From the NCBI GenBank assembly GCA_015059865.1, contig SUZP01000006.1:1-64000 (forward strand): DNA of 64,000 bases, written 5' to 3'. Shown here one piece after another: positions 34,879 through 38,666 of this stretch (position 1 is the stretch's first letter; the number at the start of each line of letters is the position of its first letter). The translations under genes and the position numbers were made by a program. The DNA is from Rikenellaceae bacterium. Its GTDB lineage: Bacteria; Bacteroidota; Bacteroidia; Bacteroidales; Rikenellaceae. The notes under the pieces were generated by a model. That model saw nothing but the letters and a program-made list of their open reading frames with translations. It was not told where the DNA came from and ran no database searches.

Positions 34879-35730
34879 TTAGGCCTTTGCTCTCTCTTTT
34901 CTTGTTTGAGTTAGCCGTTTATTCCACAAAGATAACAATTTTATTGTTAAAATTGCAATAGTTAGCACAAATATTATTGCAGGTCCTGATGGCACTTCGG
35001 CGTGGTAGCTCAATGCAATGCCCGTAACTCCGCCAATTACAGCCACTACCGTCGCAATTGGGATAATCTTTTTGTAATCTTTGGAGAGGATATTTGCTGT
35101 TATTACCGGCATTGTCAAGAGCGAAATTAGCAGTACAATACCCATTGTGCGTATCGAGAGCACGATTGTTATAGCGGTTACGACAGCCATCGTGTAGTGG
35201 ATAAATTTTACGGGTACACCTGAAGCCTCGGCAAAGTTGCGGTCGAAGGCTGCGAACATTATAGGGCGGTGCCACAAAATTGCCCCTACGATAAGCAGAG
35301 CCGAGAGTATTGCCAAGGCGATAATGTCGCCCTCGGTTACGGTTATAATGCTTCCGAAGAGGAAATTTGCCATATCGCCAGAGGTGTAGCCGGGGCGCAG
35401 AGCGATAAAGAATGCACCGATAGCCATACCTATACCCCACACCATTCCGATAGCCGAGTCGGGGCGAATCTTCGAGCGAGAGTTGCTCCACTCGATGCCG
35501 AGAGCCGAGAGAACTGCAAAAACGGTCGCTCCGAAAATCGGATTTGCGCCAAAGTAGAATGCGATGCCCAAACCTCCGAACGAGGCGTGAGTGATGCCGC
35601 CGCAGAGAAAAACCATTCTTCGTGCTACGATGTATGTGCCTATGATACCGCAGGTTATGCCCGACAATACGCAGGCGATAAGAGCATTCGATAGGTAGCT
35701 GTATTGGAGTATGTCGGAGATAAAATTCAT
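34879..35730 (-). CDS. znuB: Metal ABC transporter permease, ZnuB-like
   Basis: 283 aa membrane protein; GIIGTYIVARRMVFLCGGITHASFGGLGIAFYFG typical of ABC-3 permeases. Confidence 0.85.
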   Translation of the reverse strand: MNFISDILQYSYLSNALIACVLSGITCGIIGTYIVARRMVFLCGGITHASFGGLGIAFYFGANPIFGATVFAVLSALGIEWSNSRSKIRPDSAIGMVWGIGMAIGAFFIALRPGYTSGDMANFLFGSIITVTEGDIIALAILSALLIVGAILWHRPIMFAAFDRNFAEASGVPVKFIHYTMAVVTAITIVLSIRTMGIVLLISLLTMPVITANILSKDYKKIIPIATVVAVIGGVTGIALSYHAEVPSGPAIIFVLTIAILTIKLLSLWNKRLTQTRKERAKA

Positions 35731-35801
35731 TACATTGATTAAAAATCAATGCAAAAGTACACTTTTTTATGAAATTTCAATTGGTAATTTCAATATTTTT
35801 A

Positions 35802-35809
35802 TATATTTG
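35802..35809 (+). promoter_or_regulatory. -7 element TATATTTG upstream of the racemase-like gene
   Basis: TAnnTTTG match 49 bp before the ATG. Confidence 0.45.
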
Positions 35810-35857
35810 TGGGAAAATTTAGACAATTACTTTTACTAACTTTAAACCGAACTATTT

Positions 35858-37345
35858 ATGAAAAAAATACTTTGGTTGTTTCCAGTGATCGCGTTGCTCT
35901 CTTCGTGTTGTGGCAATGCTCTCAAAAGTAAGCCTGTTTTGACTCCTATTATGAAGAAGGCTTTGAACGACAAAGACTCTAAATTCTATGCCGATTTTGC
36001 ATCGTTCCCTAAACAGCAAAGCGAACTTCCTATTGGTGTATTTGACTCAGGTACAGGAGGTTTGACTGTTTTGGAGGTTTTGCTCAATACGGATATGGTA
36101 AATAATGTATCGGGAGAGGCGAAGCCTGATGGTGTTCTCGATTTTGCGAATGAGGACTTTATCTATCTTGCCGACAGAGCGAATATGCCATACGGAAACT
36201 ACTCTGCCGAGAGTAAGCAGGACTACCTCCGCGAGCTTGTGATGAAGGATGCGCTCTTCCTCTTGGGCAATAAGTATTGGACATCGTCGATGGAGACTCT
36301 TGCGTCGGGCGAGAAGATGCCTTGTAAGATTTTAGTTATTGCGTGCAACACTGCAACCGCCTGGGGACTTGACGATATCTCGACATTGTTGTCGGAGAGT
36401 GGTACGGGTGTTAAGGTTGTAGGCGTAATCAATGCTGGTGTAAATGCTTTGTACGATAAGATTGCGATGTCGGCCTCTACCGAGCCTTTGGCTGTGGGTG
36501 TGCTTGCAACCGTCGGAACAATCGCATCGAATGCATACGAAAGAACAATTGTTAAGATTGGCGAACAGATTGGCTATCAGGGCTCTATAAAGGTTGTAAA
36601 TCATCCTTGCGCGGGCTTTGCCGAGTCGGTTGACCAGGAGAAGGATTATGTTAATATCGCACTCAAAAAGCCACGCGATACATATAGAGGTCCAAAGCTG
36701 GGCGAGGGCGAAAATGATATCAAGGAGTCGTTGCTTGGCCTCTACAACTTCGACTATACAAAGGGTGCTGTTTTGTCGAAGAAGTCGAATGGCAAGTACA
36801 CTCAGTTCCAACTTAATTCGGCTGCTAACTATGCGAGATTTCATCTGGTTACATTGTTGGAGAAGCATAAGGCAAGTGGCGCACAAGTGCCATTGAAGTA
36901 TATCATCTTAGGTTGTACACACTATCCATTCCTACTTAATACGCTTACCGAGGCTATCGAGGAGTTGCGTAATTATAAGGATAGCGAGGGTAAGTTGGTC
37001 TATGAGGGGTTGATAGCTTCTGATTTGGAATTTATTGATCCTGCGGTATTTACTGCGTTGGAGTGCTATCGTACATTGCGCGAGACGGGAAAACTATCAT
37101 CGGATACTACCGAAGGTAAATTCGAGGGCTATATCTCTGTCCCTGCACAAGGGCTGCCAGTCGGAAGCTTGGATAGCGATGGCAATCTGACTTACGACTT
37201 CAAGTATGGTCGCGTTGAGGGTACGGAGGATGTTACTACTGTTGTTGTGCCATTCTCGAAGAGCAATATCGACGAGCCTACATTGAGTCGAATTGAGAGT
37301 ATGTTGCCGTTGTCGTACGGCAAGATGATGCAGGTTATGCAGTAA
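35858..37345 (+). CDS. Lipoprotein glutamate/aspartate racemase-like protein
   Basis: 495 aa; lipobox LLSSC, then MurI-like FDSGTGGLTVLEVL, YLADRANMPYGNYS, ACNTATAWG and GCTHYPFL. Confidence 0.8.
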   Translation: MKKILWLFPVIALLSSCCGNALKSKPVLTPIMKKALNDKDSKFYADFASFPKQQSELPIGVFDSGTGGLTVLEVLLNTDMVNNVSGEAKPDGVLDFANEDFIYLADRANMPYGNYSAESKQDYLRELVMKDALFLLGNKYWTSSMETLASGEKMPCKILVIACNTATAWGLDDISTLLSESGTGVKVVGVINAGVNALYDKIAMSASTEPLAVGVLATVGTIASNAYERTIVKIGEQIGYQGSIKVVNHPCAGFAESVDQEKDYVNIALKKPRDTYRGPKLGEGENDIKESLLGLYNFDYTKGAVLSKKSNGKYTQFQLNSAANYARFHLVTLLEKHKASGAQVPLKYIILGCTHYPFLLNTLTEAIEELRNYKDSEGKLVYEGLIASDLEFIDPAVFTALECYRTLRETGKLSSDTTEGKFEGYISVPAQGLPVGSLDSDGNLTYDFKYGRVEGTEDVTTVVVPFSKSNIDEPTLSRIESMLPLSYGKMMQVMQ

Positions 37346-37376
37346 AATATCCTTTATAACTATTTCTGTGCCGACT

Positions 37377-38666
37377 ATGCGTAAGGTTAATTTTCATACA
37401 CTTGGTTGTAAACTCAACTTCTCGGAGAGTTCGACCTTGGCACGCCAATTCGAGGCGGGCGGATTTGTCCGTGTCGGCACAAACGAAGATGCCGATATTT
37501 CGATTATAAACTCCTGCTCCGTAACGGCGCAGGCGGATAAAAAATGTCGCAATTTAATCAGAAAAATTCATCGCCGAAATCCCGATACAATCATTGCGGT
37601 TACGGGCTGCTATGCACAGTTGAAACCCTACGAGATTGCCGAAATTGAGGGCGTTGATATCGTGCTGTGTAACAACGATAAAGGCGAAACATATCGACAA
37701 GTACTTCAACTCACCGAGCGAGGTAAAACGAAGGTCTTTTCGTGCGAAACAGACGAGATAACCTCCTTCTTTTCCGCCTTCTCTTCGGGTGACCGCACAC
37801 GCGCCTTTTTGAAGGTTCAAGATGGGTGCGACTACTGCTGCTCCTACTGCACAATTCACAACGCTCGCGGAGCAAGCCGAAACACCCCGATTGCCGAGGC
37901 GGTAAAGCAAGCGGAGGAGATTGCTCGCGGCGGTCAAAAAGAGATTGTAATTACGGGTGTCAATACGGGCGATTTTGGTCGCACTACGAGCGAGAGTTTT
38001 CTCGATTTATTGAGGGCTTTGAACGATGTTGAAGGCATCGAAAGATACCGTATTTCCTCCATCGAACCAAATCTCCTAACTGACGAGATAATAGAGTTTT
38101 GCACCTCGTCACCTAAATTTCAACATCACTTCCATATTCCCATTCAGTGTGGCTCGAACAAGGTGCTTGGTTTGATGCGCCGCCGCTATACTGTGGAGAA
38201 GTTCGAGGAGCGCATCAATGCTGTGCGTCGAGCGATGCCCGATGCCTTTATCGGCATAGATGTTATTACCGGTTTTCCGGGCGAGGGCGAGGCGGAATTT
38301 GAGGAGTGCTACAACTTCCTCGCAAAGATAAACCCTTCGTTCCTGCACATCTTCCCATTCTCCGAGCGAGAAAATACCCCTGCGGTCAATTTTCCCGACA
38401 AGGTGTCGCCCGAAGTTTCGATGGCGCGTGCAAAGCGTTTGGAGGAGTTGAGCAGTCGTTGCCACTATGACTTTGCGAAGCGGTATTTGGGCACTACGGC
38501 AGAGGTGCTTTTCGAGAGTACGATGCGTGGCGGAATGATGACGGGATTTACAAGTAACTACCTGAAAGTCAAAGTGCCGTACAACAAAAAGTACATCAAC
38601 CAAATTGTAAAAGTCCGCCTCTTGGATATCGAGTCGAATGGCGATATTTTGGGAAGAATTATCTAA
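37377..38666 (+). CDS. mtaB: tRNA (N6-threonylcarbamoyladenosine 2-methylthio)transferase
   Basis: MRKVNFHTLGCKLNFSES, radical-SAM CDYCCSYCTIHNARG, C-terminal TRAM-like segment. Confidence 0.93.
   Translation: MRKVNFHTLGCKLNFSESSTLARQFEAGGFVRVGTNEDADISIINSCSVTAQADKKCRNLIRKIHRRNPDTIIAVTGCYAQLKPYEIAEIEGVDIVLCNNDKGETYRQVLQLTERGKTKVFSCETDEITSFFSAFSSGDRTRAFLKVQDGCDYCCSYCTIHNARGASRNTPIAEAVKQAEEIARGGQKEIVITGVNTGDFGRTTSESFLDLLRALNDVEGIERYRISSIEPNLLTDEIIEFCTSSPKFQHHFHIPIQCGSNKVLGLMRRRYTVEKFEERINAVRRAMPDAFIGIDVITGFPGEGEAEFEECYNFLAKINPSFLHIFPFSERENTPAVNFPDKVSPEVSMARAKRLEELSSRCHYDFAKRYLGTTAEVLFESTMRGGMMTGFTSNYLKVKVPYNKKYINQIVKVRLLDIESNGDILGRII

Follow-up and report, generated by a model that had tools for sequence, protein, structure and literature searches.

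The window, i.e. the whole stretch of 64,000 nucleotides that was analysed (positions 1 to 64,000 of contig SUZP01000006.1 of a Rikenellaceae assembly), contains on its forward strand a gene that had been predicted to encode an exported lipoprotein version of glutamate racemase. It lies between two genes which we take, from family knowledge, to encode a ZnuB-like permease and an MtaB-like methylthiotransferase. The following features were located:

34879..35730, minus strand: ZnuB-like permease gene, left flank of the insertion site; it adjoins mtaB in 10 congeners without the lipoprotein gene
35858..37345, plus strand: lipoprotein homologue of glutamate racemase, 495 aa, ATG start (PF01177, TIGR00067, hhalign to MurI)
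35858..35908, plus strand: lipoprotein signal peptide and lipobox LSS-C17; same architecture in 92/92 family members
36041..36061, plus strand: FDSGTGG, residues 62-68, with D63 and S64 as equivalents of MurI Asp10 and Ser11 (59/59 intact members)
36089..36154, plus strand: insert, residues 78-99, D79..N83..D91-G..D95-F..E99, kept in 15/15 Cys-less members
36338..36355, plus strand: IACNTA, residues 161-166, with catalytic C163 (sequence, hhalign, family alignment)
36632..36634, plus strand: D259, at the position of the invariant active-site Glu of MurI; Asp in 59/59 intact members
36644..36811, plus strand: second insert, separating the two halves of MurI, residues 263-318 (YRGP, YNFD); a gap against MurI
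36911..36928, plus strand: GCTHYP, residues 352-357, with catalytic C353 and H355 (sequence, hhalign, family alignment)
37145..37342, plus strand: C-terminal extension, residues 430-495 (KYGR, VPFS), without counterpart in MurI (hhalign; R452 conservation)
37377..38666, plus strand: MtaB-like methylthiotransferase gene, right flank of the insertion site (synteny with congeners)

The protein starts with MKKILWLFPVIALLSSCC, a typical lipoprotein signal composed of a basic n-region (MKK), a hydrophobic h-region (ILWLFPVIA) and the lipobox cysteine (LLSSC). The signal MKKILWLFPVIALLSS is followed by CC, which places the lipobox at L14-S15-S16-C17. Relatives were gathered by profile and protein searches, and in all 92 collected family members a hydrophobic segment at the N-terminus precedes a cysteine, with a strict lipobox in 84. 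The window gene is under purifying selection, with a dN/dS of 0.079 against its closest relative (L033, JAFZEY010000036.1, from a record labelled Alistipes sp. RGIG7705, water-buffalo rectum; by sequence match this is the same contig as G297:C206 and was counted once). Because of this value and of the N-terminus common to all members, reading frame and signal are not chance, and the lipoprotein signal originally proposed was thus borne out. The acidic surface-export signal after the cysteine is absent in the window protein (CCGNALKSK), and two acidic residues at this site were found in just 16 of the 92 members, so that the periplasmic face is likelier than the surface. On sequence grounds, the signal is predicted to be processed and the protein to be oriented towards the periplasm. 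Upstream, TATATTTG at 35802-35809, 48 nt before the start codon, matches the Bacteroidetes -7 element, the consensus of which is TAnnTTTG. A search of the locus against Rfam gave no match.

With PF01177 the window protein scored 32 bits, just above the cut-off of 31, and with the glutamate-racemase profile TIGR00067 87 bits, under the curated NCBIfam cut-off of 146.65. Profile alignment to canonical MurIs by hhalign gave a probability of 100 and an E value of 5.6e-46; the motifs FDSGTGG, PYG (residues 111-113), ACNTA and GCTHYP matched MurI column by column and both cysteines fell on the catalytic columns. The claim of intact MurI motifs, including both catalytic-cysteine positions, therefore held. 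Profile matches to glutamate racemases in the PDB were obtained at E 8.6e-26. An AlphaFold model built from ten sequences had a mean pLDDT of 62 (mostly 75-90 in the core, low confidence in the second insert; an earlier model from three sequences had 45). When this ten-sequence model was searched with Foldseek, glutamate racemases (RacE/MurI) ranked first among PDB entries (E about 3e-15, target TM 0.75-0.79). All matches of the window protein belonged to the Asp/Glu racemase superfamily, none showing the PLP-dependent alanine-racemase fold, and glutamate racemases were the nearest in both sequence and fold, far ahead of aspartate racemases.

Both cysteines are kept in 59 of 74 full-length sequences. 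In all 59 of these intact members, the equivalents of MurI D10, S11, D36, P41, Y42, G43, C74, N75, T76, T121, C185, T186 and H187 are invariant, and that of T118 is retained in 58; the numbering, and the catalytic and contact roles of these residues, are what we take to be family knowledge. The sole departures among the residues checked were one T218A and a uniform change from Glu to Asp: in 59/59, Asp259 occupies the position behind the CP..V motif at which Glu is invariant in MurI, and at which the MurI of the window genome itself has Glu148. The window protein is accordingly classed, by sequence, as a putative member of the PLP-independent two-cysteine glutamate racemase superfamily with a complete active site and predicted activity. 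It shares with MurI/RacE (TIGR00067, PF01177; PDB 1zuw, 2gzm, 3out) the core fold, the DSG, PYG, CNT and GCTH motifs, the two catalytic cysteines, the histidine and the substrate-contact residues, and PLP-free chemistry would be expected. It differs from these enzymes in its lipoprotein signal, its length (about 495 aa against about 250-290), its two inserts, its C-terminal extension, the Asp in place of the active-site Glu, its score below the NCBIfam cut-off and its coexistence with a normal MurI. The unusual size noted in the original prediction was confirmed and is accounted for by an N-terminal linker, the two inserts and the C-terminal extension around a complete MurI core (residues 56-412).

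The usual task of glutamate racemase is to supply D-glutamate for cell-wall synthesis from within the cytoplasm, and the enzyme is regarded as a drug target. A separate canonical MurI, the presence of which had been raised as a point to check, was found on contig C55 of the window genome; it comprises 251 aa, and the lipoprotein is therefore an addition to MurI. A role of the lipoprotein as MurI replacement was considered and rejected, given this gene and the glutamate-racemase matches in 93 of 100 genomes of another Bacteroidales family (f9), of which 89 were above the cut-off and a few weak ones were the lipoprotein itself. Full-length relatives of the window protein, in counts that include degenerate members, were present in 63 of the 100 f9 genomes; the window's taxonomic family had them in 2 of 268 genomes, the order in about 10 of 393 and the phylum in 8 of 396. 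Together these relatives form an apparently undescribed Bacteroidota-wide family. The lipoprotein was not found in viral contigs, and phages and plasmids yielded partial MurI matches only, none covering 80% of the query.

Among the 268 genomes, a lipoprotein gene between znuB and mtaB was found only in the window genome and in one other (G297). In ten congeneric genomes the run lptFG-znuB-mtaB-next-trk leaves no space for a gene between znuB and mtaB, and in the family tree the two copies are placed inside f9, beside members of genus g230 (SH-aLRT 92-99). The empty site and the nesting within f9 point to a lateral insertion in the window lineage, to be read with caution as both carrier genomes are MAGs; the donor was apparently another Bacteroidales family. 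In the window (35731-37376) the lipoprotein gene occupies what in the ten congeners (L151-L160) is an empty gap of about 100 bp, and no obvious mobile element could be observed there, as in a clean insertion. A chimeric assembly was rejected as the cause, since the gene lies between the same flanks in the genomes of two species and the site is empty in 10 congeners.

Genes for degradation and uptake adjoin the lipoprotein gene in related genomes, their names being approximate as they derive from best NCBIfam matches that are all under the curated cut-offs. In distant relatives it lies beside an AmpG-like MFS permease and a BadF kinase closest to MurNAc/GlcNAc kinase. Other neighbours include a GH3-beta-lactamase fusion closest to NagZ and PBP4B, an L-Ala-D/L-Glu (dipeptide) epimerase-like enzyme, a C69-like dipeptidase (by eye), a GltP-like symporter and an oligopeptide-symporter-like gene. 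An amidohydrolase closest to D-aminoacylase/N-acyl-D-glutamate deacylase was found in six genomes and has an N-terminal signal-like segment (by eye); the nearest solved relatives of this enzyme, which is a neighbour and not a homologue of the lipoprotein, are PDB 1m7j and 3gip. The order serine hydrolase, lipoprotein, deacylase was found in three genera. The neighbour classes were fixed before a new set of 11 loci, along with 9 control windows, was fetched from such genomes: salvage classes appeared in 9 of the 11 loci and in 0 of the 9 controls (Fisher p = 3e-4). As most of the new loci come from a genus or family already represented in the discovery set, the result is better seen as conserved synteny than as 11 independent events. 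Muropeptide salvage operons of Bacteroidota combine AmpG with MurT/MurK/MurQ, as in Tannerella (PMC7670621), and AmpG-like and MurK-like genes likewise adjoin the lipoprotein gene in one genome family; compared with the Tannerella operon the lipoprotein would be an additional component, the word 'racemase' being absent from PMC7670621.

These neighbourhoods are the reason for a salvage reading, and we consider it on balance probable that the window protein is an exported, lipid-anchored, PLP-free glutamate racemase that faces the periplasm and salvages D-Glu to L-Glu. C163 and C353 would form the acid/base pair that racemises glutamate. D-Glu would be set free outside the cytoplasm from muropeptides or N-acyl-D-glutamate, the lipoprotein would turn it into L-Glu in the periplasm, and the L-Glu would then be imported, e.g. 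by a GltP-type symporter; two SDF-family dicarboxylate/amino-acid symporters are encoded in the window genome (Pfam). We infer catalytic activity, substrate and net direction for the window protein, and its laterally acquired copy would presumably keep the salvage role. Of the functions beyond cell-wall synthesis that had been anticipated, salvage thus gained support from related genomes, while nothing was found that pointed to signalling or host interaction.

Several observations stand against this interpretation. No salvage-class neighbours were found around the window gene, and they are rare (2 of 53) at the f9 locus marked by what we take to be a purM-like gene upstream and rnd/rlmI-like genes downstream, where most Bacteroidales copies lie. 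The uniform Asp at the active-site Glu position and the score below the NCBIfam cut-off also count against it, as does the persistence of a syntenic branch without the cysteines. An oxidising compartment is an unusual place for two free thiols, which is a further point against a periplasmic racemase; anaerobic life would favour their survival there.

The Cys-less branch comprises 15 of the 74 full-length members, in which most of the pocket and at least one of the two cysteines are gone. Intact and degenerate copies share the purM/rnd locus, which indicates that part of the family became a retained pseudoenzyme, and since the branch persists, that part would act without catalysis. D79, N83, D91, D95, E99 and R452 are retained in 15/15 Cys-less members, in which the C-terminal KYGR region is likewise fixed; R452 is also kept in 59/59 intact ones, and the motif of insert 78-99 is partly missing in some intact members. 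The Cys-less branch suggests a separate function for the inserts and the C-terminus. With its pattern D-x3-N-x7-D-G-x2-D-F-x2-E, the insert is similar to a calcium-binding loop, and it was found in active and Cys-less members; that it binds metal is speculative. By parsimony on the family tree a single change suffices for the cysteine loss and repeated independent losses are not demonstrable, in a count made unsafe by long branches and from which the shortest degenerate copies were excluded. In genus g246 the purM/rnd locus holds a degenerate copy, while an intact one lies at another site, behind enolase-like and PHP-like genes, as if the active gene had been relocated (L085 4358-5716 and L109 4179-5474 in G693, and likewise in G709, G723, G735 and G747).

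The protein might instead be a lipoprotein that binds D-Glu, muropeptides or a partner protein or has a structural role, with the insert and C-terminal region as its functional portions and with catalysis vestigial or secondary. The Cys-less branch, which keeps the lipoprotein signal together with the six residues named above, and the degenerate copy at the old locus in g246 are in its favour, but we regard it as unlikely, because a vestigial site would not be expected to keep its checked catalytic and contact residues in 59/59 intact members (one T218A apart), and because of the low dN/dS. About equally improbable is a racemase or epimerase whose substrate is not free glutamate but a derivative (Asp, N-acyl or gamma-glutamyl Glu, or a dipeptide). 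The Glu-to-Asp exchange, the inserts around the core and a gamma-glutamyltranspeptidase-like neighbour in one genome (by eye) are consistent with such a substrate, whereas the other glutamate-contact positions checked are unchanged and the closeness to glutamate rather than aspartate racemases speaks against it.

More doubtful still is a periplasmic enzyme that converts L-Glu to D-Glu in the service of peptidoglycan editing or release. Racemases run both ways, and exported racemases that make D-amino acids exist: BsrV is an exported periplasmic broad-spectrum racemase (PMC7890096) which, as proposed for the lipoprotein, faces the cell wall. It is, however, a PLP-dependent alanine-racemase homologue of broad specificity and unrelated catalytic design, so that only the mode would be common to both, and the neighbours of the lipoprotein gene (deacylase, epimerase, AmpG, NagZ-like, GltP-like) are degradative or for uptake, not synthetic. 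That the protein is a normal cytoplasmic paralogue of MurI whose hydrophobic start is spurious, as the homology to MurI might suggest, is very improbable, given a lipoprotein signal in 92/92 members down to about 25-40% identity and the short MurI of the window genome.

Extended to the whole family, the salvage reading becomes more tentative: lipid-anchored PLP-free racemases may provide a D-Glu salvage step throughout Bacteroidota, sometimes with an exported N-acyl-D-Glu deacylase, while one branch would be a catalytically dead envelope protein with a second function in its inserts. Exported racemases (BsrV, PMC7890096) and Bacteroidota salvage operons (PMC7670621) are already known; a literature search, with subscription journals mostly outside its scope, revealed no periplasmic, secreted or lipoprotein two-cysteine glutamate racemase. 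If true, the exported form would add a missing extracytoplasmic step to peptidoglycan salvage in gut and environmental Bacteroidota, would explain a possible PLP-free recovery of D-Glu in the periplasm and would offer, at a single syntenic locus, a natural series that begins with an active enzyme and ends with a pseudoenzyme.

Further variation was observed in single genomes. G126 (L113), which is 99% complete, gave no canonical MurI match and has a lipoprotein homologue without both cysteines; its D-Glu may come from a D-amino-acid transaminase, or MurI may be missing through an assembly gap. In G007 (L119 4967-5962) a large in-frame deletion takes out the first catalytic cysteine of an intact-type relative, and in G1228 (L190 5364-6988) the relative is split into two overlapping frames, showing that the family is decaying outside f9 too.
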